DNA of 47,123 nt from a bacterium. GTDB lineage: Bacteria; JAUVQV01; DATDCY01. This document shows, one piece after another, positions 1-40,211 of the stretch. Made by a program: the position numbers and the translations under genes. The notes beneath the pieces are model-generated. The model ran no database searches. It was not told the origin of the DNA and was given only the letters and a program-made list of their open reading frames with translations. Location of the stretch: assembly GCA_036524115.1 (NCBI GenBank), contig DATDCY010000037.1, forward strand, positions 1 through 47,123, in the 5' to 3' direction. Positions within the stretch are counted from its first letter, which is position 1. Every line of letters starts with the position of its first letter.

Positions 1-1780
1 CCTGGACGTCCTGCGGGTCCAGGGCCGCTGCCTCCGAGAGCTCGGCGACCGCCTCGGCGAGCCGGCCGGCGCGCGCGAGCGCCACACCGAACTGGTAGCG
101 CGCGAGCGCCGAGGCCGGATCGAGGCGCGCAGCCGTCGCGAACTGCCGCCGCGCCTCCTCCTCGCCGCCGCGCGCGGCAAGCGCGCCGCCGAGGTTGAGG
201 TGCGCCGCGACGTAGCCGGGGTCCAGCGCCACCGCGCGACGAAAGGCGGCGATGCTCTCCCCGTCGCGCCCCGCCGCCTCGAGTGCCGCGCCGAGGTTGT
301 TCCAGGCCGTCGCCAGGCGCGGTTTGGCCGCGATCGCCCCGCGGTAGAGGGCGACCGCCCCATCCCCGTCCCCTCGGGCGAAAAGGATCTCCCCGAGGTT
401 GACCATGGCTTCCGCCTTGCCCGGATCGAGCGCGATGGCCCTGCGGTAGTGCTCCTCGGCCGCCGTCAGATCGCCGTTCTTCTGGCGGAAGACCGCGAGG
501 TCGTACTCGACCTCCGCCGACGGCGGCATGTGGTCCTTCGCGTAGAGGAACAGCGTCAGCTCGTCGTGCCAGATCCGTTCCTGCCGCACCGTGAGGCCGC
601 CGAGGGCGAGGATGGCGAGGCACGACGCGGCCAACGCCCCGCGCGCCAGCCGCGGGCGAGCGGCGACACCCGCGCGGCACGACCAGACGAGGGCGGCGAC
701 GGGGCCGAGCAACGGCAGGTAGGTGTAGCGATCGGCCATCGTCGCCGCGCCGACCGGGACGAATCCGGCCACCGGCGCCAGGGCGACCGCGTACCACGCC
801 CAACCGAAGACCAGCCAGGGGAAGCGACCGCCGAAGCGGACGACGAGGACGGTGACGAGCGCCAACGTGGCCAACGACACCGCCGACGCGGCCAGCCCCG
901 GCCCACCCCGGACCGCCGCGTACATCGGCGAGAGCCCCGCGGGCACCAGGGTCAGCTCGAGGTAGCGCGCGTAACTGACGACCGCGTTCAGCACGCGCTC
1001 CGCCAGCGTCGCCGCGCGCATCGCCCCGCCGCGCTGCTGGGTGACGAGGGTGACCACCGCGACCGCGGCGGCGAGCGCGGCGAGCGGGAGCTTCTCGATG
1101 ACGCGCCGGCGCCACGTCCGGGCATCCAGGCGCCCGAGGGGCCAGAGATCGAGCGCGAGCAGCAGCACGGGGAGCGTGACCAGCATCGGCTTCGCCAGCA
1201 GGCTCAGCGCGAGCAACCCGGCGCACGCCGCCAGCGCCGCCGGCCGCCGGCCGCGGACCCAGCGCAGGTAGGCGAGCAGCGAGAGCAGGCCGAAGAAGGC
1301 CGAGAGGACGTCCTTGCGCTCGGCGACCCAGACCACGGACTCCACGCGCAACGGGTGCGCGGCGAAGATGGCGGCCGTCAGGGCGCTGGCCCAGAGGGCG
1401 CCGGTGGCGCGGCGCAGCAGGGCGAAGACGAGCACCGCGTTCGCGGCGTGCAGCGCCACGTTGACCAGCCGGTGCTTCCAGGCGACGAGGCCGAACGCCG
1501 AGACGTCGGCCATGTGGGAGAGCCAGGTGAGGGGGATCCAGTTGGCCCCGTGCCGCTCCGTGAACGCCCGCCACACGCCCTGCGGCGTCAGGCCGCCGCG
1601 CACGATCGGGTTGTCGATCAGGTAGTAGCCGTCGTCCCAGTCCGGGAGGAACTCGTTGCCGAGCGACGGGAGGAAGCAGGCCGCGACGAGCGCGACGAGG
1701 GCTGCCGCGAGGAGCGCCGGCAGCGCCGTCCGCACCCGCGCGCGCGTACCTGCGTCCCCGACACCGTCCCTTCCGATCAC
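1..1780 (-). CDS. TMTC-like GT-C membrane glycosyltransferase with TPR tail (3' end beyond window)
   Basis: This minus-strand gene runs off the left edge; 593 codons are visible. A GTG start at 1780 is followed by a first membrane segment near residues 19-38, an Asp-Asp pair at 49-50 in the first external loop, and the family signature HPLRVESVVWVAERKDVL at about 142-159. A later ADRYTYLP motif and roughly ten hydrophobic segments complete the membrane domain. TPRs begin near residue 425 and continue to the edge. Architecture and motifs match the TMTC family (polyprenyl-phosphate-sugar dependent GT-C enzymes; the animal members are O-mannosyltransferases). Donor and acceptor here are inferred, not shown. 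It is divergent from the paralogue at 1807, and the two share a palindromic -10 element. In-frame codons continue upstream of the GTG, but none is a better start relative to that element. Confidence 0.88.
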   Translation of the reverse strand, partial: MIGRDGVGDAGTRARVRTALPALLAAALVALVAACFLPSLGNEFLPDWDDGYYLIDNPIVRGGLTPQGVWRAFTERHGANWIPLTWLSHMADVSAFGLVAWKHRLVNVALHAANAVLVFALLRRATGALWASALTAAIFAAHPLRVESVVWVAERKDVLSAFFGLLSLLAYLRWVRGRRPAALAACAGLLALSLLAKPMLVTLPVLLLALDLWPLGRLDARTWRRRVIEKLPLAALAAAVAVVTLVTQQRGGAMRAATLAERVLNAVVSYARYLELTLVPAGLSPMYAAVRGGPGLAASAVSLATLALVTVLVVRFGGRFPWLVFGWAWYAVALAPVAGFVPVGAATMADRYTYLPLLGPVAALVWSCRAGVAARPRLARGALAASCLAILALGGLTVRQERIWHDELTLFLYAKDHMPPSAEVEYDLAVFRQKNGDLTAAEEHYRRAIALDPGKAEAMVNLGEILFARGDGDGAVALYRGAIAAKPRLATAWNNLGAALEAAGRDGESIAAFRRAVALDPGYVAAHLNLGGALAARGGEEEARRQFATAARLDPASALARYQFGVALARAGRLAEAVAELSEAAALDPQDVQ

Positions 1781-1788
1781 GCGGTCAT

Positions 1789-1796
1789 AGTATACT
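1789..1796. promoter_or_regulatory. Palindromic divergent -10 element (AGTATACT)
   Basis: AGTATACT is its own reverse complement, so TATACT is present on both strands: 1791-1796 on plus and 1794-1789 on minus. On plus it ends 10 nt before the ATG at 1807; on minus it ends 8 nt before the GTG at 1780. No good -35 hexamer is seen on either side. It fits a shared bidirectional promoter giving very short or absent leaders. Confidence 0.55.
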
Positions 1797-1806
1797 TGAT
1801 GCAGGA

Positions 1807-3573
1807 ATGAGCGCTCCGGCCCCGATCCGCCCCGGATCCTTCCCGCTCCGGAATCATCGCGCGCTGATGCCCCCCGCGCTCGTGTTGCCCGCCTTGGCAG
1901 CGGTGCTCCTTTACATTCCCGTCATCGGCTTCGGCGTGACGAACTTCGACGACAACATCTACGTCAGCGAGAACGACGCCGTTCGGGCGGGCCTCGGCCT
2001 GCGGGGGCTGGCGTGGGCGCTCGGCGGCTTCCACGCCGGCTATTACATCCCGGTCACCTGGCTGTCGCTGATGGCGGACGCCTCCCTCTACGGGCCGTGG
2101 CCGGGCGGCTTTCACCTGACGAACGCGCTGCTGCATGCCGCCAACGTCTTCCTCTACGGCTGGCTGCTCCAACGGTGGACCGGCCGCCTGGCGCCGAGCG
2201 TCGCCGCGGCGTTCCTCCTGGCCGTCCACCCGCTCCACGTCGAGTCGGTGGCGTGGGTGACCGAGCGCAAAGACGTCCTCGCGATGTTCCTGCTGCTGAT
2301 CGCGCTCCATCTGCACCGCTCCTGGCTCGGGGACCCGGCGGGGGCAAACCGGGGGCTGTTCCTCGGCGCGTTCGCCCTGTCGCTCCTGGCCAAGCCCATG
2401 GGCGTCGTGCTGCCGGTGCTCCTGCTGCTTCTCGAACGCTGGCCCCTCGGACGGCGGACCGGGCCCGGCCGACAGCTGGCGGACCTCGCCCCCGTCGCCG
2501 CCCTGTCCACGGCCGCGGCGACGCTCACTCTCGCGGGACATTGGCTCGGGCAGGTCGTCGCCCCGCTTGGGACGATCCCGATCGGCCGGCGGCTGGCGAC
2601 CTGCCTCGCCGGGTTCGGCTGGTATCTCCGGAAGGCGCTCTGGCCTGACGTCCTCGCAGTCCACTACCGGCTTCCTCCGGCCGGGCCGTCCGCGGCGGCG
2701 CTGTTCCTCTCCGCCGGTCTGCTGGCGGCCTTCTGCCTCGCGGCGTGGCGGTGGCGGCGGGAGCAGCCGGCGCTCGGCGTCGGCCTCGGCTGGTATGCGG
2801 CCGCACTCGTCCCGGTGAGCGGCCTGTTTCAGGCGGGGATCCAGGCCACCGCGGACCGCTTCGCGTACCTGCCGCTTGCCGGGGCGTACATGGCGGCGAC
2901 GTGGACGGCGTCGCGGTCCCGGGTGCCGGCGGCCGCAGTCCATCGGGCGGTCGTGGTGGCGCTCGCAGCCCTCACCGCCATCTCGGCCGCTCAGCTTCCC
3001 TACTGGCGGGACTCCGGCTCACTCTTCAGCCGGGCGCTCACGGTGGACCCGGACGATCCCGTGGCCCGGGCCAACCTCGGCTCCTTCCTGCTGGAGCGCC
3101 GCCGGTATGCCGAGGCCGAGGAGCACCTCAGGCGTGCGCTGGCCATGGACCCCGGAAACGTCGGGACCCGCGTCAACCTCGCGGACGCGCTCGTCGCGCG
3201 CGGCATGACCGCCGAGGCGGTGGAGGAGTACCGGCGCGTCGCGGCGCCACACCCCGAGCACCGCAGGGCCCGTTTCTCCCTGGCCCTGGCGCTGGCCAGG
3301 CTCGGCGAGACGGACGCGGCCCTGCTGGAGCTCGACGGCATTCTTGCCGTCTCCCCCGGCTTCGCGGAGGCGCACTACCAGAAGGGGCTCCTTCTGGCCA
3401 TGAAGGACCTCGACGCACAGGCGCGAGTCGCGCTGGAGGAGGCGGTGCGGCTCGATCCCGGCTTCGGCCCGGCGCACCACAACCTCGGCGTCGTCCTGAT
3501 GAGGCTTGGGGAGACGACCGGGGGCGAGCGTCACCTGGCCGAAGCCGGCCGCCTTGGTGTCCGCGAGCCATAG
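1807..3573 (+). CDS. TMTC-like GT-C membrane glycosyltransferase with TPRs
   Basis: A 588-residue polytopic protein. The Asp-Asp pair lies at 48-49 (FDDN), the signature HPLHVESVAWVTERKDVL at 141-158, an AKPM motif near 196 and an ADRFAYLP motif further on. From about residue 401 there are five TPR-like units, such as NLGSFLLERRRYAEAEEHLR. In TMTC-type enzymes the membrane domain transfers a sugar from a polyprenyl phosphate on the outer face of the membrane, and the TPRs face the same side to bind the acceptor. The start ATG is fixed by the -10 element ending 10 nt upstream; AGGA abuts the ATG, too close for a normal ribosome site. A second paralogue follows after 32 bp. Confidence 0.9.
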   Translation: MSAPAPIRPGSFPLRNHRALMPPALVLPALAAVLLYIPVIGFGVTNFDDNIYVSENDAVRAGLGLRGLAWALGGFHAGYYIPVTWLSLMADASLYGPWPGGFHLTNALLHAANVFLYGWLLQRWTGRLAPSVAAAFLLAVHPLHVESVAWVTERKDVLAMFLLLIALHLHRSWLGDPAGANRGLFLGAFALSLLAKPMGVVLPVLLLLLERWPLGRRTGPGRQLADLAPVAALSTAAATLTLAGHWLGQVVAPLGTIPIGRRLATCLAGFGWYLRKALWPDVLAVHYRLPPAGPSAAALFLSAGLLAAFCLAAWRWRREQPALGVGLGWYAAALVPVSGLFQAGIQATADRFAYLPLAGAYMAATWTASRSRVPAAAVHRAVVVALAALTAISAAQLPYWRDSGSLFSRALTVDPDDPVARANLGSFLLERRRYAEAEEHLRRALAMDPGNVGTRVNLADALVARGMTAEAVEEYRRVAAPHPEHRRARFSLALALARLGETDAALLELDGILAVSPGFAEAHYQKGLLLAMKDLDAQARVALEEAVRLDPGFGPAHHNLGVVLMRLGETTGGERHLAEAGRLGVREP

Positions 3574-3605: not shown

Positions 3606-5534
3606 ATGTGCTCGTATCCAGTGGCGATCCCCGCGAATCCGCCGGGAAAGGACCGCGGCCACATCCTGTCGATCGTGCCCTGGGGCGCGGTGCTCGCCCT
3701 GGCGGCGACGCTTCTCGTCTACCTGCCGGGCCTGGGCAACGGCTTCACCAACTGGGACGACGACCACTACGTGACCGCAAACCGCTTTGTCCAGCGGCTG
3801 AGCGGCGCGAATCTCCTCCACCATGCGACCTCCTTCACCGCGGGCAACTACCACCCGCTGACGCTCGCCGTGCTCAGCCTCATCCACCGCGCCTTTGGAC
3901 CCGACCCGCGCGCGTTCCATGCGGCCAGCCTTCTGCTGCACTGTGCGAACGTCGCGCTCGTGCTGCGCCTGGCCCTGCGCCTCGGAGCGGGCGCGAGCGC
4001 GGCCGGCATCGCCGCGCTCCTGTTCGGCGTCCACCCGCTCCACGTGGAGTCCGTCGCCTGGGTCGCCGAGTTCAAGGACGTGCTCTCGGCCGCGTTCTTC
4101 TTCGCCGCCATCCTCGCGTACCTCCAGTATCGCGACGGGACGCGACGGCGCCTCTGGTACGGCCTGGCCCTGGCGTCCTTCCTGCTCTCGCTCCTTGCCA
4201 AGCCGATGGCCGTCACGCTCCCCGTGGTCCTCCTGCTCTGCGACCGACTGCAGGGCAGGCGCCGGGACCGGGCGGCCCTGATCGAGAAGGCGCCGTTCTT
4301 CCTGCTGGCGCTGCTCTTCGGCGGCGTCGCTCTCGTCTCGCAACAGAGCGCGCTGCGGTCCGGCATCTTCGCCCTGGGGGAGAACCTCCGGATCGCCGCG
4401 CACGGACTGCTCTTCTATCTCGCGAAGGCGATCGTGCCGACCGGTCTCTCGGCTCTGTACCAGATCCCGCGGACGGCCGACGGCGGACTCCCGCCGGCGT
4501 TCACGTGGGCGCCGCTGGTGATCCTGCCGCTCGTTGCGCTTGCCGCCTGGTGGGGCCGCCGCTCGCGGACCGCCGCCTTCTCCGCCCTGTTCTTCCTCGT
4601 CACGCTCCTGCCGGTCCTGCAGATCGTCCCGGTGGGCCCCGCTGCGGCCGCAGACCGCTATTTCTACATTCCCTCCTTCGGGCTGTTCTTCGCTGCGGGA
4701 CAGGCGTACGCCTGGCTGGGAGAACGCGCCGCGCGCGGCTCCCGTTGGGCGGGCGTGCTCCTGCCCGCCGGGGCGGCCGCGGTGGTCCTGCTCTTCGGGG
4801 GGCTGGCCCGCGAGCGCGTCGGCGTCTGGAAGGACTCGCTCACGCTGTGGACGGACGCGATCGCGAAGGACCCCGCGTCCGACATGGCGTATGGGTACCG
4901 CGGCATGGCACGCGCGGCCGCGGGGGACGACACGGCGGCCATGGCCGACTTCGACCGGGCGCTCGAGCTCGGGGCGCGACGGCGCTTCAGCGCAGAGGTC
5001 TACTACAACCGCGGCGCCCTCCATCAGGCGCGCGGCAGGATGGCGCAGGCCCTGGCGGACTATGACCGGGCGCTGGAGATCGACCCGCGGGCCGTGCGCG
5101 CCCTCGTCAACCGGGGCAACGTGCTCGACACGCTGGGCCGCACTGCGGAGGCGGTGCAGGACTACGAGCGCGCGATGTCCCTCGCGCCGGACGATCCGCT
5201 GCCCCGCTACAACCGCGGCCTGGTGCGCCAGATGGCCGGGGCGGAGGAGCAGGCTGTCCGCGACTACGACGACGCGCTGCGGCTGGACCCGGGGTTCACC
5301 CTCGCCCTCGTCAACCGCGGCATCGCACAGGGGCGGCTGGGCCGCCTTTCGGCCGCGATCGACGACTTCACGCGGGCGGCCGCGATCGAGCCGCGCTCCG
5401 CGACCGTCTTCGAGAACCGCGCCATGGCGTACGCGGCCGCCGGCGACCAGCAGCGGGCCGCGGCCGATCGCGAGCGTGCGCAGGCCCTCGCAGCCGAGAG
5501 GCGGCCCGACCCCCTCGGAGCAGCCGTCCCGTGA
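3606..5534 (+). CDS. TMTC-like GT-C membrane glycosyltransferase with TPRs
   Basis: A 642-residue paralogue of the preceding gene. The first loop carries NWDDDHYV (Asp pair at 51-52), then HPLHVESVAWVAEFKDVL near 143-160. Phe replaces the usual Arg in the ERKDVL part, the only such change among the eight members with this signature. ADRYFYIP precedes the end of the membrane domain. Residues from about 415 form six or more TPRs of the YNRGALHQARGRMAQALADY type. The ATG is chosen because it follows the -10 element by 10 nt; an upstream extension of the frame lies inside the previous gene. Its TGA overlaps the GTG of the next gene by 4 bp, so the two are probably translationally coupled. Confidence 0.9.
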   Translation: MCSYPVAIPANPPGKDRGHILSIVPWGAVLALAATLLVYLPGLGNGFTNWDDDHYVTANRFVQRLSGANLLHHATSFTAGNYHPLTLAVLSLIHRAFGPDPRAFHAASLLLHCANVALVLRLALRLGAGASAAGIAALLFGVHPLHVESVAWVAEFKDVLSAAFFFAAILAYLQYRDGTRRRLWYGLALASFLLSLLAKPMAVTLPVVLLLCDRLQGRRRDRAALIEKAPFFLLALLFGGVALVSQQSALRSGIFALGENLRIAAHGLLFYLAKAIVPTGLSALYQIPRTADGGLPPAFTWAPLVILPLVALAAWWGRRSRTAAFSALFFLVTLLPVLQIVPVGPAAAADRYFYIPSFGLFFAAGQAYAWLGERAARGSRWAGVLLPAGAAAVVLLFGGLARERVGVWKDSLTLWTDAIAKDPASDMAYGYRGMARAAAGDDTAAMADFDRALELGARRRFSAEVYYNRGALHQARGRMAQALADYDRALEIDPRAVRALVNRGNVLDTLGRTAEAVQDYERAMSLAPDDPLPRYNRGLVRQMAGAEEQAVRDYDDALRLDPGFTLALVNRGIAQGRLGRLSAAIDDFTRAAAIEPRSATVFENRAMAYAAAGDQQRAAADRERAQALAAERRPDPLGAAVP

Positions 5535-7738
5535 TCGCTGCCGCGGGATCCGCGCCCTCGCCAGCGGCGGCGCCGGGACACCGCCGGCGCCAGCTCGTGG
5601 TGCTTGCGGCGCTCGCCGCGCTGAGCATCGCCGTGCACGCCTTCGCGGCGGCCGTCTGCGCCCCCGAAGCGCCGTTCCTCAAGTACCCGCTGGCGGCCGA
5701 GCAGTACCTGCGTGGCGGGCTCGGCGCGGAGCGCATCGCGGACTTCAGTCAGCTCTACCTGGCCCTGCACGTCGCCGTGCAGATGGCCGGCCTGGACCCG
5801 CTGTCGACGTTCCGGATCCTCCACGTCGCCTTTTCGACCGGCGCCGCGCTGCTGCTCTTCCTCGCGGTGCGCGCCGCCGCATCCACGGGCGTCGCGCTGG
5901 CCGCGACCGCCGGGTTCCTCCTCAACGCGAGCGTGCTGGTCTACACGCAGCTTCTCGAGCCCGAGGCGATGCTGCTGTTCCTGCTGCTTGCTTTCGCCTT
6001 CTTCGCGGTGCGGGAGGAACGGCGCTCTCTCGTGGCGGCGGGCGCTTTCCTCGCCCTGTGCGTGCTCACCCGCCCGACGTACCTCCCGCTCGCCGCCGCG
6101 GTGCCTCTCTGGCTGCGCCTGCGCGCCGGCGCGGGGCGGCCCTGGCGGGCGCAGGCGCTGTGCTTCCTCGCGCCGCTCGCGGTCGCGCTGGTGCCGGCCG
6201 CGGCGCTCTCGCCGGCCCGGCCGGGGAGCGACATGCCGCTGGTCATGAACCCGGGCAACGTCTTCTTCGAGGGGAACAACCCACTGGCAGGCGGCCTCGG
6301 GCTCGCCTACCCGCCGCTGGTCGACGACGTCGCGGGCGAGTCCCCGGAACAGCCCGACTACCAGCACGCGGTCTACCGCACGATCGCGCGCGGCGTCTCC
6401 GGCCGGCCGCTCGACGCCGCCGAGGTCAACGCCTACTGGAGCGCCAAGGCGCTGGCGTTCCTGCGCGACGAGCCCCGGGAAGCCGCACGGCGCCTTGCAG
6501 GAAAGGTGCGGGCGTTTCTCGGCGGCTACCGGCGGCACGACGTCCTCGCCGCCTTCCTGCTCGACCGGCGCCTGGGCGACAGCGCCCTGCCGGCGGTCCC
6601 CTTCGCCGCCGTCTCCGCCTTCGCAGTCGTCGGACTGGCGGTCCTCGCGCCCGCCTGGCGACGCTGGCTCCCGTTCCACCTCGTCTGGGCAACCCAGCTC
6701 GGCCTGGCGGCGCTCGTCTACGCCACCGACCGCCAGCGCGTCGCGGTCGCGCCCTTCTTCGTCTTCTTCGCCGCCGCGGCGGCAGCCTGGGCGCTCCAGC
6801 GCCGGAGGAATCTGGCGTTGCTCGCGGCCGTCGCCCTGCCCCTGACCGCCCTCTTCTCCCTGCGCAGCGACGTCATGCGCGAGGACGAGCACCTGTGGAG
6901 CGTCTACGCGAAGTCGGGAGAGCTGCGCGGCGAGGCGGCGGAGCGCCGCGAGCGAGGCGACCGTGCCGGGGCTGCGCGGGCGACCGCAGCCGCCCTCGCG
7001 CAGACGCCGTGGATGGCGGACTGGATCCGGCCGTCGGGCCTCTCGTTCGGGCCGGAGGGCCTCGCCGGAGCCGCTCTGGCGCAGGCTGCCACCGTATCTC
7101 CCGCCGACTTCTCGGGACAGCTTGACCGCGCCATCCTCCTCATCGAGGCCGGGCGGCCCGCCGAGGCCGAGCCGCTGCTGCTGGGCCTCGCCGCCGGAAG
7201 GCGCCGGTTCGCGCGCGTCTTCGACGGCTCATCCCGCCCCGAGTTCTATCTCGGGGTCGTCGCCGCCCTGCGCGGGGACCGCGATGGCGCCGTCCGGCGG
7301 CTGGAGGAGACGCTGGCGCGATCGCCCGGCGATCCGTTCGCCCTCGCATGGCTGGCGGCGCTCACCGGGCGCGACGAGCCACGCCGCCTGCTGGCACGGT
7401 ACTTCGACGAAGCAGACGCAGCTTTTCTCGAGGGGCAGGCGCACCTGCGGCTCGGCCACCCGCAGGCCGCCGTCGAGGCGTTCGCGGCGGTCAACCGCAT
7501 CCTCCCGGGGTACCGCCGCGGCAGGATCTACCTCGCGGTCGCGCTCGGGGCCGCCGGCCGCTACGAGCAGGCCGCGGAGCTCTATCTCGACACCGTCAGG
7601 GAGCGGCCGGAGCCGGTCCTGCTGGAGGCCGACGTGCGCCGGATCTTCGACGGCCTGGTGGCGGCACACCCCGCCAGCGCCGACGCGCGCCGCTGGCGGG
7701 AATTCGTCCGCTGCGAGTTCGAGGCCTGCCCGCGCTGA
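5531..7738 (+). CDS. Polytopic membrane protein, PMT/GT39-like, with TPR-like C-terminus
   Basis: A 735-residue protein starting at a GTG that overlaps the previous stop (GTGA). The N-terminal ~430 residues hold about ten hydrophobic segments typical of GT39/ArnT-like GT-C proteins, including the stretch LEPEAMLLFLLLAFAFFAVR and the loop NPGNVFFEGNNPLAGG. The C-terminal ~270 residues are soluble and TPR-like, for example ILLIEAGRPAEAEPLLLGLA and HLRLGHPQAAVEAFAAVN. It lacks the HPLHVES signature, so it is not a TMTC paralogue in the strict sense. Coupling to the upstream TMTC-like gene suggests the two act together. Substrate unknown. Confidence 0.85.
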   Translation: MIAAAGSAPSPAAAPGHRRRQLVVLAALAALSIAVHAFAAAVCAPEAPFLKYPLAAEQYLRGGLGAERIADFSQLYLALHVAVQMAGLDPLSTFRILHVAFSTGAALLLFLAVRAAASTGVALAATAGFLLNASVLVYTQLLEPEAMLLFLLLAFAFFAVREERRSLVAAGAFLALCVLTRPTYLPLAAAVPLWLRLRAGAGRPWRAQALCFLAPLAVALVPAAALSPARPGSDMPLVMNPGNVFFEGNNPLAGGLGLAYPPLVDDVAGESPEQPDYQHAVYRTIARGVSGRPLDAAEVNAYWSAKALAFLRDEPREAARRLAGKVRAFLGGYRRHDVLAAFLLDRRLGDSALPAVPFAAVSAFAVVGLAVLAPAWRRWLPFHLVWATQLGLAALVYATDRQRVAVAPFFVFFAAAAAAWALQRRRNLALLAAVALPLTALFSLRSDVMREDEHLWSVYAKSGELRGEAAERRERGDRAGAARATAAALAQTPWMADWIRPSGLSFGPEGLAGAALAQAATVSPADFSGQLDRAILLIEAGRPAEAEPLLLGLAAGRRRFARVFDGSSRPEFYLGVVAALRGDRDGAVRRLEETLARSPGDPFALAWLAALTGRDEPRRLLARYFDEADAAFLEGQAHLRLGHPQAAVEAFAAVNRILPGYRRGRIYLAVALGAAGRYEQAAELYLDTVRERPEPVLLEADVRRIFDGLVAAHPASADARRWREFVRCEFEACPR

Positions 7739-8456: not shown

Positions 8457-8460
8457 GCGC

Positions 8461-9978: not shown

Positions 9979-10084
9979 GCGGCGACCTCGCCCTTGGCGT
10001 CCCCCCGGGCAGGGCGCCGCGGAACTCGACTCCAGCCGGTTCTCGGGAAATCCGCCAGGTGCATGCGCCGCCTCCGCCGCGGGC

Positions 10085-10090
10085 ACTATA
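10085..10090 (-). promoter_or_regulatory. -10 element TATAGT
   Basis: TATAGT on the minus strand upstream of the TMTC-like/DPM1 operon. A transcript starting about 7 nt downstream would begin near 10078 and carry a leader of about 100 nt to the TTG at 9978. The -35 region is poor. This is the one promoter here that does not predict a leaderless message. Confidence 0.4.
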
Positions 10091-30858: not shown

Positions 30859-32640
30859 ATGCCGCCCGCCGCTGCCCGCCCCTCCGACCGACGTGCCCGG
30901 GTCCTCGGCGTCGCGGGGATCGCCATCCTCGCGCTGGCCGCGTTCTGGCCGATCGGGCGCCACGAGTTCCTCGACTGGGACGACGGCATCTACGTCCGCG
31001 ACAACGACATGGTGCGTGGCGGCCTGACGCTGGCGGGACTGCGCTGGGCCTTCACCGCGCTCGAGGGCGGGAGCTGGCACCCGCTGACCTGGCTGTCCCA
31101 CATGCTGGACGTGCAACTCTTCGGGCTCGACGCGGGCGCGCATCACCTCACGAGCCTCGTGGCGCACCTGGCGGCATCGCTCGCGCTCGTCATCGTCCTC
31201 GGGCGGCTCACCGGGAGGGTCTGGCCCGGCGTCCTGGTCGGCGCGCTCTTCGCCGTGCATCCCCTGCACGTCGAGTCCGTGGCGTGGCTCTCGGAGCGCA
31301 AGGACGTGCTGTCGGCGCTCTTCTGGATGCTCACGATCGCCGCGTATGAGCGTTTCGTTCGCCGTCCCGCCAGGGCGCGCTACCTCGTCCTGATCTTCGT
31401 CTTCTGCCTCGCGCTGATGACAAAGCCGATGGTGGTGACCCTCCCCCTCGTGCTGTTGATCCTGGACTACTGGCCCCTCGGAAGGCTCCATGACCGCGGC
31501 GCGGCGCCGCTCCTGCGGGAGAAGCTGCCCCTGTTCGCGCTGGCGGCTGCCGGCGCCGTCGCGACCGTCGCGGCGCAGGCCGTCGCGGGAAAGACGGTGG
31601 CCACGCTGACGGTGCTCCCGCTGCCGCTGCGCCTGGCGAACGCGGCGACGAGCGCCGCGGCCTACCTGAGGGACATGGTCATCCCCCGGAACCTCGCGTT
31701 CTACTATCCGTATCCCATCGACGGCGTCCCGCCCGCCGCGATCGGCGGGGCGGTCGCGCTCCTCGCGGGGTGCTCGCTGCTGGCGCTGTGCCAGCGTCGC
31801 GCGCGGCCGTTCCTCCTGGCGGGATGGCTCTGGTACCTCGTGACGCTGCTGCCGGTGATCGGCATCGTCCAGGTCGGGATGCAGGCCCGCGCCGACCGGT
31901 ACACCTATCTTCCGCTCGTGGGCATCTTCGTGCTCCTCGCGTGGGGCGGCGCGGACCTTGCGTCGCGATCCGCCGGCAGGCGCGTCGCATTCGCCGCCGC
32001 CGGCGTCCTGGTCGCGCTCCTCTGCGCCGCGCTCGCACGGGGGCAGGTCGGTTCGTGGCGGGACACGGAGACCCTGACGCGCCGGGCGATCGCCGTGACG
32101 GCCGGGAACTGGGTGGCCCACGTGAACCTCGGCCAATACCTCATGCGCCAGGGGCGCGACGAGGAAGGGCTGCAGCAGTACCGCGAGGCGGCCGCGCTCG
32201 TCCCGGCGCGCGCCGAGCGCCACTTCCAGCGCGGTCTGCGGCTCGCGGGCGAGGGCCGGGACCGGGAGGCGGCGGCCGAGTACGCCCGCGCAGCCGAGCT
32301 CTTCCCTCCCTTCGTCATGGCGAACTTCTCCCTCGGCCTGCTGGAGGCGAGACAGGGCGACGTGGCATCGGCCTCCCTGCACCTGCGGGCGGCCATCGCC
32401 TACCGGCCCGACTTCGTCGAAGCGCACTTCGAGCGGGGGGTGCTCATCGCGCAGGCCGGCGAGTGGGAGGAGGCCGCGGCGCACTTCTCGGAGGTTCTCC
32501 GCTACCGCCCCGACTTCCCCGGGGCCCGCCACAACCTCCAGGTCGTCCTCGAGGGGCTCGGCTATGGGCCGGATTACGTCGACCAGTTCCTGCAAAACCG
32601 CGGGGGGCACCCGGACGTGCAGCGCTGGAGCGCGCCCTGA
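30859..32640 (+). CDS. TMTC-like GT-C membrane glycosyltransferase with TPRs
   Basis: A 593-residue paralogue with Asp pair at 41-42 (DWDDGIYV), SWHPLTWLSHMLDVQLFG, the signature HPLHVESVAWLSERKDVL, LMTKPMV and ARADRYTYLP. TPRs occupy about residues 405-575, such as VNLGQYLMRQGRDEEGLQQY. The frame is open well upstream, but the ATG at 30859 is set by the -10 element 7 nt before it, and the upstream stretch is antisense to the ResB-like gene. Its stop overlaps the next ATG (TGATG). First gene of a coupled four-gene set: two TMTC-like transferases, then two radical SAM proteins. Confidence 0.9.
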   Translation: MPPAAARPSDRRARVLGVAGIAILALAAFWPIGRHEFLDWDDGIYVRDNDMVRGGLTLAGLRWAFTALEGGSWHPLTWLSHMLDVQLFGLDAGAHHLTSLVAHLAASLALVIVLGRLTGRVWPGVLVGALFAVHPLHVESVAWLSERKDVLSALFWMLTIAAYERFVRRPARARYLVLIFVFCLALMTKPMVVTLPLVLLILDYWPLGRLHDRGAAPLLREKLPLFALAAAGAVATVAAQAVAGKTVATLTVLPLPLRLANAATSAAAYLRDMVIPRNLAFYYPYPIDGVPPAAIGGAVALLAGCSLLALCQRRARPFLLAGWLWYLVTLLPVIGIVQVGMQARADRYTYLPLVGIFVLLAWGGADLASRSAGRRVAFAAAGVLVALLCAALARGQVGSWRDTETLTRRAIAVTAGNWVAHVNLGQYLMRQGRDEEGLQQYREAAALVPARAERHFQRGLRLAGEGRDREAAAEYARAAELFPPFVMANFSLGLLEARQGDVASASLHLRAAIAYRPDFVEAHFERGVLIAQAGEWEEAAAHFSEVLRYRPDFPGARHNLQVVLEGLGYGPDYVDQFLQNRGGHPDVQRWSAP

Positions 32641-34457
32641 TGCACCTGCCGCGCACGACGGACCGACGGCGACTCCTCGTCGCCTGCCTCCTGGTCTTCT
32701 CCGCGGCGACAATCCTCTACCTCCCGGCGACGCGTTACCCGTACAACCTGCTCGACGACCGCGCCCTCGTCACGCAGAACCCTCTCGCCCGCAGCGTCGG
32801 CGGGCAGACGCCGGGCGGCCTCTTCTCCGTCCACGAGGGCTACTGGATCCCCGTCACCTGGCTCTCCTTCAGCATCGAGCAGTTGGTGGCCGGCGGGAGC
32901 CCCGGACTCTCCCACGGCACGAACGGGCTCCTGCACGCCGGCAACGCCGTCCTGCTGCTGCTGCTCCTGGCGCGGCTGACCGGCAGGATCGCGCCTGCGT
33001 CCCTCGTGGCCGCGGCCTTCGCCGTGCACCCCGCCGGCGTCGAGGCGGTGGCATGGATCTCCTCGCGCAAGGACGTCCTCTCGACCTTCCTCGCGCTCTT
33101 GTCGCTCCACGCGTATGTCGCCTGGACCCGCCGGCCCCGCGCCGGCTTCGCCGCCGGCGCGCTCGCTCTCTTCGTGGCGAGCGTCCTGGCCAAGCCGATG
33201 CTGGTCCTGCTGCCCGTACTCCTGCTGCTGCTGGATTTCTGGCCGCTGGGGCGCTGGCGGTCGGAGCGGCCGGCCGCGCTGGCCGCCGCGAAGTTCCCTT
33301 TCGCCGCCGTCGGCGCCGCGGTCGCCGCGGTGTATCTCCTGACCCAGAAGAGCCATGTCACGGGCCTGGCGATCGTCGGCCTCGGTTCCCGGCTCGCCCA
33401 CGGCCTGGTCGCGCCACTCTTCTACCTGGGCATGCTGCTGCGGCCCGCCGACCTCGCCTTCATCTACCCGATCCGCGAGCACCCCTACCCGCTCTGGCTG
33501 GTGCTCCTCACGCCCTGCCTCGTTGCCGCGGCCACGTGGTGGGCCGTGCGCGAGCGGCACCGCTTCCCCTGGGTACTCGCGGGCTGGTTCTGGTACCTCG
33601 CGACGCTCGCGCCCGTCTCGGGGTTCGTGCAGGCGGGTGTCACGATCGTGATGGACCGCCTCGTCTACGTGCCGGGGATCGGCATCCTGCTGCTCGCGGC
33701 GGGGGCGCTCGGCGCGGCGCTCGGCGGCGCGACGGACAGGCGACGGCTCGCCATCGCCGCCGCCTGCGTGGCCGGCATCGCCATGCTCGCTGCAATGCAG
33801 AGCCGGCAACTCTCGTACTGGCGGGACGACGAGACGCTCCTCTCCCGAACCGTCGAGGTCGCGCCGGACAGCGGCATCGCCCAGTGGAACCTCGCGATCA
33901 CCCTCCTCCAGAAGGGAAACCGGGACGGGGCGCTGGAGCACGCCCGAGCGGCGCGCCTGGCCGCCCGCGGGGACGGCGAGATCATCTACAACGCGGGCCT
34001 GGTGCTCGACAACCTCGGCCGGTTCGAGGAGGCCGCGGAGGCGTTTCGGGAAGCCATCGCCCTCGGCGACCCGAGCGCGCGGGTGCGGGCGGCCCTGGGC
34101 GTAGCCCTCGGCAGCACGGGGCGGATCGAAGAGGGGCTGCCGTTCCTGGAGGAGGCCCGAAGGCTCGACCCGCGCTCGAGCGAGGTCGCCTTCAACCTCG
34201 GCGTGGCGCTGCTGCGGCTGGGCCGGCCGGCGGAGGCGCTCGCGCCCCTTTCCGCGGCGGCAGCCCTCTCTCCCGGCGATCACCGCGCTCTCTTCAACCT
34301 CGGGATCGCCCTCCAGGGCGCCGGCCGACCCGCGGAGGCGGCGGACCGCTTCGCGGAGGTCCTCCGCATCGCACCCGGCCTCGACGCCGCGCGCCGGCAC
34401 CTCGCCGAGGTCCGGGAAGTGCTCGGGCGGAACGCAGCCGCGGGGGACGCACGGTGA
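32640..34457 (+). CDS. TMTC-like GT-C membrane glycosyltransferase with TPRs, variant motifs
   Basis: A 605-residue paralogue that departs most from its eight-member subgroup. The Asp pair is at 39-40 (NLLDDRALV), the signature is HPAGVEAVAWISSRKDVL, and MDRLVYVP replaces ADRYTYLP. LAKPML is kept. Five or six TPRs follow from about residue 410, including a regular series around FNLGVALLRLGRPAEALAP. It starts on the stop of the previous gene and its own stop overlaps the next start (GTGA), so all are translated as a unit. Whether the changed motif shifts sugar or acceptor is unknown. Confidence 0.9.
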   Translation: MHLPRTTDRRRLLVACLLVFSAATILYLPATRYPYNLLDDRALVTQNPLARSVGGQTPGGLFSVHEGYWIPVTWLSFSIEQLVAGGSPGLSHGTNGLLHAGNAVLLLLLLARLTGRIAPASLVAAAFAVHPAGVEAVAWISSRKDVLSTFLALLSLHAYVAWTRRPRAGFAAGALALFVASVLAKPMLVLLPVLLLLLDFWPLGRWRSERPAALAAAKFPFAAVGAAVAAVYLLTQKSHVTGLAIVGLGSRLAHGLVAPLFYLGMLLRPADLAFIYPIREHPYPLWLVLLTPCLVAAATWWAVRERHRFPWVLAGWFWYLATLAPVSGFVQAGVTIVMDRLVYVPGIGILLLAAGALGAALGGATDRRRLAIAAACVAGIAMLAAMQSRQLSYWRDDETLLSRTVEVAPDSGIAQWNLAITLLQKGNRDGALEHARAARLAARGDGEIIYNAGLVLDNLGRFEEAAEAFREAIALGDPSARVRAALGVALGSTGRIEEGLPFLEEARRLDPRSSEVAFNLGVALLRLGRPAEALAPLSAAAALSPGDHRALFNLGIALQGAGRPAEAADRFAEVLRIAPGLDAARRHLAEVREVLGRNAAAGDAR

Positions 34458-35518
34458 CGACCCGCGCCGACCTGCGCTTCCTCGGCTCGATCCTCGCGTC
34501 GAATTTCCGCCGGCTGGCCCATCCCTTCAAGATCTCGTTCGCGGTCACCTACCGCTGCAACATGCGCTGCGCGATGTGCAACATCTGGCGCAAGACGCCG
34601 GCCGGCCGCGAGCTGGACGCCGCCGAGATCGACCGGTTCTTCCGGCACGCGACGGGCGCCTACTGGGTGGGCATCACCGGGGGCGAGCCCTTCCTGCGCG
34701 AGGACCTGCCGGAGATCATCGACAGCGTCTGCCGCCACTCGCGCCGCCTGCGTTCCATCCACTTCGCGACGAACGGGTCGTTCGGAGAGCGCGCCGTCGC
34801 GGCGGTCGGACGCATCCACGGGCACCTGCCGCGCCTGCCGGTCGTCGTCACCGTCAGCATCGACGGGCCGCGCGAGCTGCACGACCGGATCCGCGGCAGG
34901 AGCGGCGCCTGGGACGCGGCGGTCGCCACGTTCACGCGGCTGAAGGCGACGCCGGGCGTCAAGGCGCAGGTCGGCTTCACGCTCTCGCACGCCAACGTCG
35001 GCCGGTTCGAGGACGCCCTGGGCGCGCTGCGCGCCGCCTTCCCCGCCCTGCGCTTCGACGACGTCAACGTCAACATCTTCCAGCGCTCCTCCTTCTACTA
35101 CGAGAACCTGGAGGTCCCGCGGCCCGACCCGGGGCTGCTGGCCGCGCAGATCGAGTGCATCCTGGCCCTCGACGGCGGGGAGGCCTCGATCCACAACTTC
35201 CTGCGGCGGCGCTACCTGCGCCTCCACGACAGCTTCGCCCGGACCCGCCGGTGCCCGCTCACGTGCCAGGCGCTCTCCTCGACGTGCTACGTCGACCCGT
35301 CCGGGGACCTCTACCCCTGCGCCGTCTACCGGAGGCGTCTCCTGAACGTCCGGGAACTCGATGCGCCGCTGGAGCAGGCCTGGTCGTCCGAGCAGGCGCA
35401 CCGCATCGCCTTCGAGTGCTCCCACGACCAGTGCCCCGGGTGCTGGAATCCCTGCGACGCCTTCAGCGCCATCGGCGGCTCGCTCGTGCGCGCGGCGCTC
35501 GGCAGACCCCGGCGATGA
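34454..35518 (+). CDS. Radical SAM protein with SPASM-like C-terminus (first of tandem pair)
   Basis: A 354-residue enzyme. CNMRCAMC gives the SAM-cluster cysteines 35, 39 and 42; TGGEPFLRED, FATNGS and VSIDGPRELHD are the expected core motifs. The end carries further cysteines (CPLTCQALSSTC, LYPCAV, CSHDQCPGCWNPC), enough for one or more auxiliary clusters. The GTG start overlaps the previous stop. No PqqD-like peptide-binding domain precedes the barrel. It may modify a sugar, a lipid or a peptide; it could be relevant that a 20-residue peptide is encoded 4.8 kb away. Substrate unknown. Confidence 0.88.
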   Translation: MTTRADLRFLGSILASNFRRLAHPFKISFAVTYRCNMRCAMCNIWRKTPAGRELDAAEIDRFFRHATGAYWVGITGGEPFLREDLPEIIDSVCRHSRRLRSIHFATNGSFGERAVAAVGRIHGHLPRLPVVVTVSIDGPRELHDRIRGRSGAWDAAVATFTRLKATPGVKAQVGFTLSHANVGRFEDALGALRAAFPALRFDDVNVNIFQRSSFYYENLEVPRPDPGLLAAQIECILALDGGEASIHNFLRRRYLRLHDSFARTRRCPLTCQALSSTCYVDPSGDLYPCAVYRRRLLNVRELDAPLEQAWSSEQAHRIAFECSHDQCPGCWNPCDAFSAIGGSLVRAALGRPRR

Positions 35519-36582
35519 GAACGCCGCATGTGGACCGCATTCGCAGGAGTCTCGGGCTGCTCGGCGCCGTCGCGGCCTCGAACTTCCGGCGCCTGCGCCA
35601 CCCGACGACGCTCTCGTTCGCGGTCACCTGGCGCTGCAACCTGCGCTGCCGGACGTGCAACATCTGGCGTCGCGCGCCGACGGACGGGGAGCTGACGCCG
35701 GCGCAGGCCGACGACTTCTTCCGCCGCACGGACGGCTTCCGCTGGGTGGGCCTCACGGGCGGGGAGCCGCTCCTGCGCCCCGACCTCGCGGCGATCGTCG
35801 ACGCCGCCGCCCGCTGCCGCACCCTGGACACCATCCAGATCAACACCAACGGGCAGCTCCGCGAGGCGGCGCTCGCGCTGCTCGAACACGTCCGCCGGCG
35901 CCATCCCCGCCTGCGCGTGGTCCTCACGGTGAGCGTCGACGGACCGCCCGATGTCCACAACCGCATCCGCGGCAAGGCGGGTGCCTGGGAGCGCGCCGCC
36001 GCAACGTTCGTCGCCGCCAAATCGGTCCGCGGCGTCAAGGCGCAGGTCGGCTACACGATCTGCGCCGACAACCTTGGCCGATTCGCGGCCGCGTACGAGG
36101 CGCTGCGCTCGGCGTGGCCGGCCCTGCGCTTCGACGACGTCAACGTGAACGTCTTCCAGACCTCGGGCCACTACTACGGCAACGAGGGGATGGCCCCGCC
36201 GGATGACACCGCCCTGTTCCGCGAGATCGACGCCATTCTCGCGCTGGACCGCGACCGCCCCAGCGTGAACAACGCCCTGCGCCGGCGCTACCTGCGTCTC
36301 TACCAGCGCTACCTCGCCGAGCGCCGCAGCCCGCTGCGCTGCCAGGCGCTCTCGGTGACCTGCTTCCTCGACCCGGCGGGCGACCTCTACCCGTGCGTCG
36401 TCTTCCCGAGGGTCCTGGCGAACGTGCGTTCGCTGGAGGGGGGCCTGCGCGACCTGTGGGGTACGGCGGCGGCCCGGGCATTGCACCGGCAGTGCTCGAG
36501 CGGCGGATGCCCGGCCTGCTGGAGCCCCTGCAACGCGTTCAGCGCCATCGGCGGCTCGCTCCTGCGGGCGGCGTTGACCTGA
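35515..36582 (+). CDS. Radical SAM protein with SPASM-like C-terminus (second of tandem pair)
   Basis: A 355-residue close paralogue of the preceding gene, overlapping it by ATGA. CNLRCRTC supplies cysteines 41, 45 and 48; TGGEPLLRPD, NTNGQL and VSVDGPPDVHNRIRG follow. The C-terminal cysteines are in the same pattern (LRCQALSVTC, LYPCVV, CSSGGCPACWSPC). Long blocks such as PALRFDDVNVN and CNAFSAIGGSLLRAAL match the first copy with few changes, so this is a tandem duplication. Two copies kept side by side suggest either two substrates or a heteromeric pair. Last gene of the plus-strand operon. Confidence 0.88.
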   Translation: MRTPHVDRIRRSLGLLGAVAASNFRRLRHPTTLSFAVTWRCNLRCRTCNIWRRAPTDGELTPAQADDFFRRTDGFRWVGLTGGEPLLRPDLAAIVDAAARCRTLDTIQINTNGQLREAALALLEHVRRRHPRLRVVLTVSVDGPPDVHNRIRGKAGAWERAAATFVAAKSVRGVKAQVGYTICADNLGRFAAAYEALRSAWPALRFDDVNVNVFQTSGHYYGNEGMAPPDDTALFREIDAILALDRDRPSVNNALRRRYLRLYQRYLAERRSPLRCQALSVTCFLDPAGDLYPCVVFPRVLANVRSLEGGLRDLWGTAAARALHRQCSSGGCPACWSPCNAFSAIGGSLLRAALT

Positions 36583-36614: not shown

Positions 36615-37769
36615 TCAGGGCGCCAGCAGCCGCAACACCTGGGGATAGAGTTCCCGCGCCAGGTAGCGATGGCCGGCGACGTTCGGGTGGTTCTCGTCGA
36701 GAAAGAGGGAACCCCAGAACCGCGCGACCTCCTCGGGGCGCTCCCGCGCCGCCTCCATGACCGCCGTGATCTCGACGATGCCGGAGCCGCCGCCGGCCAC
36801 ACCGAGCGCCTTGCTCAAGTCGCTGCGCAAGTCGGGGAGCGGATCCACGAACGTGATCCCGTGCTTCCGGCAGAAACCTCCGAGGATCTCCTGCGGCGAA
36901 TCCACCCGGGCGACGTAGACCAGCTGGAAATCCCGCGGCGACGCGAGCACGACGAGCGGCACGTGCTGCGCGCCGGCCAGGGCCGCCAGCTTCTCCAGCC
37001 ACGTCAGGTAGTCGCGCCACCCCCGCTCGACCTCCGGGAGGTCCGCCCTGAAGACGAGGTTCTCCTCGGTGAGGGTCTCGCGCCGCCTCGCCTCCCGCTG
37101 CAGCCGCTCGCCCGAGGGCTCCAGGAACTCGATACTCGCGATCACATCCCGCAGGAACAGGTACAGCGCGCTGTGCCCCGACAGGAAGTAGTGGTAGTAC
37201 GGGCCGTCGATGACATCCGGCATCGTCGGCATCTCGCCCGCCCCCCCGAACCTCCTCAAATACGCGTACGGCTCGAGAACGTCGTTGAGGTTGAACTGGA
37301 GGATCGCGAGGTCCGGCTTGAACGCGAGGGCACGCTTGAAGTCCTGGTACTCCTGGAAGATCGAGTAGCCGGGGACCCCCAGGTCGAGCACTTCGTGCTT
37401 CCCCGGGGCGCCCCCGCCGTTCAACAGATGCTCCAGCACGCGCGGATAGGGCGCGTCGTCCGGCACCCCGTGGCCGAAGGACACCGAGTCGCCGAGGACG
37501 ACGATCCGGGTCGTGCCGGCCGGCTTCTCCTGGGAGACCTCCGGACCCCGGAAGCCGGACGAATTGATGGTGACGTCGTCAATCCCGGCGAAGTACTTCC
37601 GGACGCCGCGCCGCAGCCGGTAGATCTTGTCCCGGTCGTACTCGAAGAGACTTTCGTCGCGAAGCCGCTCCGGTGAGTACTTCAACCTGCACAGCGCCTC
37701 CGCCGTCCCGAGCAGGACGACGAGCGAGCAGACCGACAGGAGGATGTTCTTGCTGAGATCGCCCGACAT
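36615..37769 (-). CDS. Membrane-anchored SGNH/GDSL hydrolase
   Basis: A 384-residue protein with an N-terminal membrane segment (about 8-24). All SGNH blocks are clear: VLGDSVSFG with Asp94-Ser95, DLGVPGYS at 129-136, FNLNDV with Asn162-Asp163, and DENHPN with Asp358 and His361. It is the most canonical of the five SGNH proteins here and is likely an active esterase or acyl transferase on the outer side of the membrane. It lies 34 bp after a CDP-alcohol phosphatidyltransferase gene on the same strand, probably in one message. Confidence 0.87.
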   Translation of the reverse strand: MSGDLSKNILLSVCSLVVLLGTAEALCRLKYSPERLRDESLFEYDRDKIYRLRRGVRKYFAGIDDVTINSSGFRGPEVSQEKPAGTTRIVVLGDSVSFGHGVPDDAPYPRVLEHLLNGGGAPGKHEVLDLGVPGYSIFQEYQDFKRALAFKPDLAILQFNLNDVLEPYAYLRRFGGAGEMPTMPDVIDGPYYHYFLSGHSALYLFLRDVIASIEFLEPSGERLQREARRRETLTEENLVFRADLPEVERGWRDYLTWLEKLAALAGAQHVPLVVLASPRDFQLVYVARVDSPQEILGGFCRKHGITFVDPLPDLRSDLSKALGVAGGGSGIVEITAVMEAARERPEEVARFWGSLFLDENHPNVAGHRYLARELYPQVLRLLAP

Positions 37770-38421: not shown

Positions 38422-38431
38422 GTCGGGCGAG

Positions 38432-38459
38432 GATAAAGGAAACGACGTTCGACCATCAA
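38432..38459 (-). promoter_or_regulatory. Weak promoter candidate, TTGATG-N16-TTTATC
   Basis: Minus strand TTGATG (38459-38454) and TTTATC (38437-38432), 10 nt before the ATG at 38421. The hexamers are poor, but the distance to the start codon fits the pattern of the other promoters. Confidence 0.3.
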
Positions 38460-38597
38460 GGCCAATCGCCGCCTGAAGAACTCGACTTCTCGGCGGTCAC
38501 CGCGCCCCCGGAAGGCTGGTCCTCGGATGCGGCCCGCTCGAAAGCCTCCAGGTGCCGTCGCGCCCTCGCCGCCAGGGGAGACTTTCACGTTCCCCGT

Positions 38598-40211
38598 TCA
38601 TCGCCTCGCCCTTCCGTCCGCCGCCTCGAGCCGCTCGGCGACGTCCCGGTACGCGTCGATGTGCCGGAAATACTCCGGAACCGACTCCAGCCACCGCGCG
38701 GCCTCCGGGAGCATTCCCAGGTCGATGTATCCCCTGGCGAGCCCCAGCATCGCCAGGGGACTCACGCCGGGGATCCGTTCCATCACCTCTTCGAAGCGGC
38801 GGATGCCCTCCACGGGCCTCCCGGCTTCGAGGAGCAGGAAACCCAGCGCGAGACGGGCGTCGGTGAAGCCCGGGCGGACCTCCAGCGCGCGCCGCAACGC
38901 ACGCTCCGCGCGCCCGCGCTCGCCCGCGTCGGCGTAGGCCCCGGCCAGGAACAGCCAACTCCTGACGTTGCCCGGCTCCCTTCCCGTCTCGGCGGTCCAC
39001 AGTGTGATGCCATCGGCGAAATCCCGGTTGCGGATCGCGGTCCGCGCGGTCAGGAGCACAAGCGCAGCAGCGACGACCGCTGCGGTGGCCGCCAACGCCC
39101 GTGCCCGGCCGAGCCAGCGAGTCGCCGCGAGCAGGACGGCTGCAAGGAGCAGGCAGAAACCCACGGAAGGTAGGTAGGCGAAGCGCTCGGCCATGAGGAA
39201 CGGGGTCACCACCAGCAGGTTCGCGGTCGTCGCGAAGGCCGCGCAATGGAGCACCGCGCCGAGGGCCCAGGCCTGCCGCCGCCGCCACCCCGCCACGATG
39301 GCGACGACCGCCGCGATCGCCCCGGCGGCCACGGCCAGCCCCTGCACCGAACCGGCGCGGGAGACCGGGCCGATCATCGTGTCCACGAACGCAGCGTCCA
39401 GGCGCAATGGCGCGGCCAGCCGCACCGCGTAGAGGAATTGGACCTTCAGCGCCGTCAACACCCGTGCGGGCAGGTCCAGGAGGACCAACGGGTTGTCGAC
39501 CGGGTCCGGGAGGTTCCGGGGCAGCGACCCCGAGAGGAGCGCCCATTTCCGAAACGCCAGCCAGCATGCGGTCACCACGCACAGCAAGGCATACAGGGGC
39601 CAGCGCTCCCGCGCGACCGCCCTGCGCTCCCGAGTGCCGAAGACGTCCAGGAGCAGAAGCAGCGCGGGGAACGTCGCGGCGCTCTCTTTGGACAGCAGCG
39701 CGAGCGTGTACCATGCAGCGGCGACGACCCGGTGGAGACGCCCCCGGCGCAACGCCGACCGGGCCGCGAGAAGCACGAAGAGGGCGGCAAGCAGCTCTGC
39801 CCTCCCGGTGACGATGTCGATGACCTCAGTATGGACGGGGTGGACAGCGAAGAGCGCTCCGGCAAGCCACGAGAGCGCCAGCGGGACGCCGGCGGCGACG
39901 AGCACGACGGAGGTCAGAACGGCCACCCCGGCGTGCAGCAGGACGTTGACCAGATGGAAGAACACCGGCGCAGGCCCGAAGAGCCGCGCGCCGAGGGCGT
40001 ACGAGAGAATGGTCAGCGGGCGGTGGAGGCCGCTGCCGGCGCCCGTGCCCCAGTAGTCGGCCGCGACGATCGTCGGCAAGTCCGCCGACCACACCAGCGG
40101 ACTATCCCGGACTATGGCCAGGTCGTCGCCGATGAACGCACCCGGGAACGAGTTGACGTAGGCGCACAGCGCCAGCGCCACGATTGTCGCCGGGACGAGC
40201 GCCGGCGACAA
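38598..40211 (-). CDS. TMTC-like GT-C membrane glycosyltransferase with TPRs, divergent subgroup
   Basis: A 537-residue protein of the same subgroup as the gene at 22446: Asp pair at 29-30 (IGDDLAIV), HPVHTEVIDIVTGRAELL, LLSKESA and MAERFAYLP. Three or four TPRs follow from about residue 405. The start is unsure. A TTG at 40211 gives a complete first membrane segment but has no ribosome site, and it lies only 12 bp after the T-run of the terminator of the peptide gene; a GTG at 40181 is the alternative. No promoter is visible in that gap, so expression may depend on read-through of the terminator. Confidence 0.85.
   Translation of the reverse strand: MSPALVPATIVALALCAYVNSFPGAFIGDDLAIVRDSPLVWSADLPTIVAADYWGTGAGSGLHRPLTILSYALGARLFGPAPVFFHLVNVLLHAGVAVLTSVVLVAAGVPLALSWLAGALFAVHPVHTEVIDIVTGRAELLAALFVLLAARSALRRGRLHRVVAAAWYTLALLSKESAATFPALLLLLDVFGTRERRAVARERWPLYALLCVVTACWLAFRKWALLSGSLPRNLPDPVDNPLVLLDLPARVLTALKVQFLYAVRLAAPLRLDAAFVDTMIGPVSRAGSVQGLAVAAGAIAAVVAIVAGWRRRQAWALGAVLHCAAFATTANLLVVTPFLMAERFAYLPSVGFCLLLAAVLLAATRWLGRARALAATAAVVAAALVLLTARTAIRNRDFADGITLWTAETGREPGNVRSWLFLAGAYADAGERGRAERALRRALEVRPGFTDARLALGFLLLEAGRPVEGIRRFEEVMERIPGVSPLAMLGLARGYIDLGMLPEAARWLESVPEYFRHIDAYRDVAERLEAADGRARR

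Follow-up and report, generated by a model that had tools for sequence, protein, structure and literature searches.

The stretch of DNA analysed here, called the window, is a complete 47,123-nucleotide contig (DATDCY010000037.1, or C37), one of the 374 contigs of a 3.9-Mb bacterial genome (assembly GCA_036524115.1) with a GC content of 71%. ORF inspection of the window, with correction of the start positions, located ten open reading frames (ORFs) within 2-40,211 that encode paralogous proteins, each made of a membrane domain of the GT-C type and a C-terminal tail of tetratricopeptide repeats (TPRs). An earlier reading of the letters alone (the sequence-only reading) had placed ten genes resembling the animal TMTC proteins over this interval, and all ten were found there. 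T1 (2-1780, minus strand), which has lost its C-terminus at the contig end, is separated by a gap of 26 bp from the divergent T2 (1807-3573, plus); both are of the ERKDV type. T3 (3606-5534, plus) is an EFKDV variant on the strand common to T2 and the downstream gene G4, while T4 (8461-10086, minus) has a short tail of two TPRs. T5 (22446-24371, plus) is of the TMTC type (YRP, GRAEL, KET) and is followed on the same strand by T6 (24393-26243), again of the ERKDV type. T7 (27965-29743, minus) carries ERKDL, T8 (30859-32640, plus) ERKDV and T9 (32640-34457, plus), which overlaps the T8 stop, SRKDV. Finally, T10 (38598-40211, minus) is the copy nearest to the animal TMTCs (RP, GRAEL, KES, AERFAY). 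The ten membrane domains are 23-50% identical to one another and, except for the pair T5/T10, the nearest relative of each copy lies elsewhere in the genome. This fits the earlier description of genes on both strands and in several operons, not in a single tandem array.

Alignment of the ten proteins revealed 22 invariant columns across the whole membrane part (T8 numbering): D41, D42, P75, T77, G89, H103, H134, P135, E139, L151, K189, L200, G208, Y269, P276, L279, R347, Y350, P352, G355, D402 and L406. The Asp-Asp pair previously noted in the first loop is therefore common to all ten. The two other motifs attributed to the whole set hold for most members: the HPLHVESVAWVxERKDVL-type signature occurs in eight proteins, as HPxxVE(S/A)VxW(V/I/L)..(R/F)KD(V/L)L, but in T5 and T10 it is replaced by another type, HPxxTExxxxVxGRAELL, which is closer to the animal TMTCs, and the ADRYxYLP-type motif takes variant forms in T10 (AERFAYLP), T5 (ALRVMYLP) and T9 (MDRLVYVP). 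A membrane-domain profile matched the ten with E-values of 1e-119 to 1e-168, far past chance. TPR tails were found by Pfam in every protein, as had been claimed, with those of T4 under every gathering cut-off. Matches to the PMT families (PF02366/PF13231, GT39) were sub-threshold in T1 (PMT, 19.1 against 22.7 bits) and T8 (PMT_2, 23.9 against 26.1 bits), and Pfam gave none in the other eight. An NCBIfam search of the ten returned sub-threshold TPR families only, and a PDB sequence search with the membrane-domain profile gave nothing useful.

Human TMTCs have been described by seven motifs and consist of 11 transmembrane segments with luminal TPRs; bacterial homologues are mentioned in passing in the same work (PMC7801869). 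Motif M1 (DD) is present in 10/10 window proteins and M5 (DW, loop 4) in none of them. M2 (YRP, as R-P) and M4 (KE) were found in T5 and T10 only, the other eight having H-P or I-P and KPM or KSM at these places. M3 (RxD) appears as RKD in most, RAE in T5 and T10 and FKD in T3, and M7 (ERxxY) as ERxxY in T10, DRxxY in most and LRxxY in T5. T10-type relatives in many genomes have a fuller TMTC set that includes YRP, GRA[DE], KE, a D[YW]-like motif and AERxLYLP. The TMTC profile PF08409 (TMTC_DUF1736) had no match in the ten or in their own genome, and likewise none in 14 control genomes, nor was it among the leading Pfam families of 19 TMTC-type (T10-type) proteins. A search for TMTC/GT105 profile hits, proposed with the sequence-only reading, thus came back negative, with most TMTC-specific motifs missing in eight of the ten. 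The family is TMTC-like in architecture, but we do not assign the window proteins to GT105.

An AlphaFold model of the T8 membrane domain, for which the ten window sequences were the only input, reached a predicted local distance difference test (pLDDT) value of 86.5 and a predicted template-modelling score (pTM) of 0.89 and displayed 11 transmembrane helices. When this model was searched against the PDB, the 23 best fold matches were all GT-C enzymes with polyprenyl-linked donors, including ArnT (5f15), yeast STT3, PglB, Pmt4 and AftA; template-modelling scores were modest (0.4-0.56) and E was below 0.001 for one match only. Over the ten proteins, Lys and Arg number 2.11 per 10 residues in predicted inner loops vs 0.63 in outer loops, a positive-inside distribution by which DD, HPxxxE, K and R..Y lie on the outer side and the C-terminal TPR tail is periplasmic. 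The same topology has been deduced for human TMTCs (PMC7801869). A cytoplasmic position of the Asp-Asp pair, an outcome that would have told against the sequence-only reading, was checked for and is not what the charge rule indicates. Model and charge rule together support a GT-C fold with TMTC-like topology, and sequence and model together place a predicted catalytic Asp-Asp pair in the first periplasmic loop. Among 44 full-length copies from the same genome, DD, the H of HPxxxE and K are each present in 44/44, R in 40/44 and the last Y in 43/44. Invariance of DD, H and K despite an identity of about 38% points to purifying selection on a putative catalytic site. It is very likely that the ten window proteins are periplasm-facing GT-C glycosyltransferases.

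The profile of the ten gave 54 matches in their own genome, corresponding to about 50 places after split matches had been joined, and 44 of these copies cover >85% of the membrane domain. Two copies, at L115 (G000:C347) and L143 (G000:C246), are each split into two frames that overlap, which a frameshift or an assembly error would explain, and many further ones lie at contig ends. About 50 is the top copy number among some 130 genomes searched, in a 60-genome part of which the best 30 candidates per genome were scored. Among the matches listed, other expansions comprise 38 copies in a Geobacter metagenome-assembled genome (MAG), 34 in a Phycisphaerales MAG of 2.3 Mb, 24 in another planctomycete and 21 in a Hydrogenedentes MAG. 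A bacterial counterpart with this number of copies in one locus had been put forward as new; ten do lie there, but they belong to a genome-wide set of about 50, and 34-38 occur in other genomes. The same profile gave one strong and one weak match in the sole same-order relative searched, which was also the one other genome of the phylum compared. When placed in a tree together with 46 relatives, the own copies cluster strongly (2 label changes vs 30 expected on shuffling), which suggests that most arose inside this lineage, with the caveats that deep support was poor and that relatives had been picked by similarity to the query. The family is widespread, a scan of GTDB species having yielded at least 582 confirmed relatives in Desulfobacterota, Planctomycetota, Verrucomicrobiota, Hydrogenedentota, Acidobacteriota, Nitrospirota and other phyla.

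The tails hold 2-6 TPRs in which the usual TPR core is conserved. Their median pairwise identity of 32% equals that of shuffled tails, the membrane domains being 38% identical. A full-length T8 model built with 38 sequences (pLDDT 92.0, pTM 0.89) was confident enough for the TPR solenoid to be predicted as rigidly placed on the membrane domain. The tail of this model matched designed consensus TPRs and then those of two protein glycosyltransferases, O-GlcNAc transferase and SPINDLY. The sequence-only reading had assigned specificity to the tails, with which their divergence to the shuffled baseline agrees; TPR surfaces drift fast, however, so that this agreement does not amount to proof of acceptor choice.

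Two GT2 genes in the window provide candidates for the donor side. The first (7749-8456, minus) follows T4 by 4 bp on the same strand, in an apparent operon, and encodes a polyprenol-phosphate-mannose-synthase-like protein that matches dolichol-phosphate-mannose (DPM) synthase (5MLZ) with an E-value of 1e-60 over residues 2-220. The second (14016-14762, plus), polyprenyl-phosphate-sugar-synthase-like, is followed 7 bp on by a YfhO-family GT-C gene (14770-17121, plus), an arrangement like that of CsbB-YfhO polyprenyl-phosphate-sugar systems. With one apparent operon to go by, mannose is a plausible sugar.

Based on these observations, we propose that periplasm-facing GT-C glycosyltransferases are the products of the ten genes and of about forty others in the genome. 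Each enzyme would probably use a polyprenyl-phosphate-sugar donor, most likely one that carries mannose or a related hexose and that is supplied by the GT2 synthases of the same locus, and would probably transfer its one sugar to an exported protein that the C-terminal TPR solenoid holds in the periplasm. Since putative catalytic residues are kept while the tails have diverged to saturation, it is most likely the acceptor that varies between copies, and perhaps the donor or linkage too. For the Desulfobacterota relatives the acceptor would probably be the neighbouring type IV pilin. Sequence, models and gene linkage make a set of polyprenyl-phosphate-sugar-dependent protein glycosyltransferases the best explanation as a whole, and one that we hold with moderate confidence. 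That protein acceptors are chosen by the TPR tail also seems somewhat more probable than its contrary, with linkage support coming from the Desulfobacterota relatives only. The earlier suggestion of transferases with different acceptors gains in this way from the intact putative catalytic residues and from the pilin linkage, which backs a protein acceptor.

This linkage was observed in two data sets. At loci fetched by similarity alone, type IV pilins made up 7/133 adjacent genes vs 1/250 distant ones (Fisher p 0.003). At the level of the phylum, 49 genomes were sampled evenly from Desulfobacterota, to which Desulfonema magnum belongs, and pilins and GT-C/TPR proteins were searched separately. 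A pilin was located within 5 kb of a family member in 13 of the 26 genomes having both (0.57 expected on uniform placement), within 2 kb in 10 (0.28 expected) and within 1 kb in 6 (0.18 expected), and 12/21 linked pilins were upstream on the same strand. The pilin p values assume random placement, and the pilin profile was made from 13 sequences that mostly came from pilins neighbouring the family, though it also finds many unlinked pilins. With PMT_2 GT-C proteins as a control, 2/81 pilins were linked vs 0.92 expected, both in one genome among the matches listed, so the linkage appears specific to the TMTC-like family among the GT-Cs tested. Gene maps from Desulfobacterota and relatives show pilA with one to five family members downstream, either adjacent or separated from it by one gene (L033, L051, L075, L090, L094, L100, L198, L199 and L204); in Desulfonema magnum (NZ_CP061800) a pilin gene precedes four consecutive copies. 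This arrangement recalls TfpW of Pseudomonas aeruginosa (group IV pilin), a GT-C arabinosyltransferase that modifies pilin and serves as a pilin accessory protein (PMC11841053), which is likewise found beside pilA; the likeness lies in described role and gene position, and the window family differs in its TPR tails and in the missing pilin link of the window genome. A C-terminal [ST]P was counted in 8/36 linked vs 1/21 unlinked pilins (raw counts), pilins ending in Ser-Pro or Thr-Pro being found at L090, L094, L100, L051, L199 and L228. In a cross-phylum set the signal was weak (4/115 within 2 kb vs 0.82 expected), and among the matches listed one genome accounted for two of these four.

Several results weigh against tail-guided protein glycosylation. 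No pilin motif was present in the 303 kb examined around the copies of the window genome, whose sole pilin-like match (C208) is away from any family copy; adjacency to a type IV pilin was seen in Desulfobacterota relatives and not in this genome. The scattered own copies have unrelated neighbours, and a dedicated neighbourhood was given up as an idea after no recurrent acceptor emerged from 90 neighbours. Linked pilins showed no significant Ser/Thr excess (p 0.15). DPM-synthase-like GT2 genes were not enriched near relatives (1/259 near vs 4/285 far), and a donor synthase as a general partner of the family was dropped in favour of a pairing local to the window. The likeness of the tails to O-GlcNAc transferase and SPINDLY is partly due to their near-consensus TPRs. 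Lastly, eight of the ten lack the metal-binding Glu of the TMTC KE motif, in addition to the DW motif, and the donor site of those eight may differ from that of TMTCs.

Among alternatives, the strongest is a role in the modification of lipids or surface polysaccharides (lipopolysaccharide, capsule or exopolysaccharide) instead of proteins, each enzyme adding one sugar or linkage of one or a few surface glycans and the TPRs assembling a complex; we regard it as rather unlikely. The window also contains the YfhO protein, a PMT_2-like and other GT-C-like proteins, the two GT2s and five SGNH-domain proteins, which would suit such a role, as would the tandem runs of 2-5 copies in relatives if sugars were added in succession. 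The closest fold to the T8 domain, moreover, is that of the 4-amino-4-deoxyarabinose transferase ArnT (5f15/5ezm; Foldseek E 3.8e-4), which modifies lipid A. ArnT shares the GT-C fold and a periplasmic active site with T8-type proteins, as well as its undecaprenyl-phosphate-sugar donor if theirs is as proposed, but it is 16% identical and has a periplasmic domain in place of TPRs. Copies elsewhere in the window genome, however, are scattered without glycan-cluster neighbours, the pilin linkage is specific to the TMTC-like family among the GT-Cs tested, and tandem copies by one pilin would also fit a protein-bound glycan built stepwise.

That these are genuine bacterial TMTC/GT105 O-mannosyltransferases, with the donor site and chemistry of the animal enzymes, we consider improbable. 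Animal TMTC1-4 (GT105, cadherin O-mannosyltransferases) do have the same architecture, an 11-segment GT-C domain with the N-terminus inside, DD in the first outer loop and a TPR tail on the outer or luminal side, and the GRAEL-, RP- and KE-type motifs of T5 and T10, together with the YRP-, GRA[DE]-, KE- and ERxxY-type motifs of T10, T5 and relatives, are as in human TMTCs (PMC7801869). The absence of PF08409, the different residues of eight window proteins at YRP and KE and the lack of DW in all ten speak against it, and animals have four copies per genome vs tens here. The third alternative, that the majority of copies persist through dosage or drift as redundant or non-catalytic scaffolds, could draw on the very high copy number, the scattered positions and the contig-edge or frameshifted copies, but is very improbable given DD, H and K in all 44 full-length copies at about 38% identity.

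The proposed protein glycosylation by the family has partial parallels in two further systems. PMT/POMT enzymes (GT39) have a GT-C fold, as the Pmt4 match illustrates, and are polyprenyl-phosphate-mannose protein glycosyltransferases; unlike them, the window proteins have at most sub-threshold PF02366/PF13231 matches and TPRs that replace the MIR domain. O-GlcNAc transferase and SPINDLY combine a TPR solenoid with a glycosyltransferase domain and head the natural fold matches to the TPR part, but they are cytosolic GT-B enzymes using nucleotide sugars and serve as an analogy only. In its broadest form, our proposal would make TMTC-like GT-C/TPR proteins a general class of dedicated bacterial protein O-glycosyltransferases, each matched by its tail to an exported acceptor of its own, which in Desulfobacterota would be a pilin, with about fifty in this genome forming an acceptor-specific periplasmic repertoire and the animal TMTCs as an offshoot; we offer this tentatively, as a generalisation that is more doubtful than the proposal itself.

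A literature search whose coverage left out most subscription journals found no functional study of bacterial TMTC homologues and no paper on the family or its pilin link. If the link is real, the Desulfobacterota proteins would form an uncharacterised class of pilin glycosyltransferases. Acceptor choice by TPR tails, a question posed by the animal TMTCs, could then be tested in bacteria, using a single enzyme together with an acceptor encoded next to it. A genome in which the family has expanded roughly fifty-fold would mark the extreme of acceptor diversification.

The remaining genes of the window include further membrane proteins. G4 (5531-7738, plus), with a 4-bp overlap with the T3 stop, encodes a large hydrophobic protein with weak C-terminal TPRs that appears GT-C-like by inspection. 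A further membrane protein (19763-21493, plus), without a Pfam match, was likewise judged GT-C-like by eye, and a PMT_2-like GT-C protein without TPRs (26158-27519, minus) is encoded downstream of T7 and a small ORF on the same strand. Five SGNH/GDSL-type proteins, possibly sugar O-acyl enzymes, lie among the glycosyltransferases (10200-13889, 18330-19493 and 36615-37769). Of three radical SAM genes, one is at 17108-18058 (minus) and two, with SPASM matches, at 34454-36582 (plus); the latter have 4-bp overlaps with the T9 stop and with each other and so look co-transcribed with T8/T9. Upstream of T7 on the same strand, a short ResB-like protein (29736-30761, minus) aligns with just the ~80 initial positions of the ResB profile.

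The cadherin domains on which animal TMTCs act are Ig-like, and T10 is 187 bp downstream of a Big_1/invasin-like gene (40399-42750, minus) whose secreted-looking product has Big_1 and Invasin_D3 Ig-like domains. An Ig-like acceptor for T10 was nevertheless dropped, since the leading families in the neighbourhoods of 20 T10-type relatives did not include Ig-like ones. The Ig-like gene stands between T10 and a multihaem cytochrome gene, all three on one strand. The cytochrome (42834-47123, minus) runs past the contig end and has 19 CxxCH and 6 CxxxxCH motifs in 1429 residues; judged from the cytochromes, the host lineage is probably Gram-negative.

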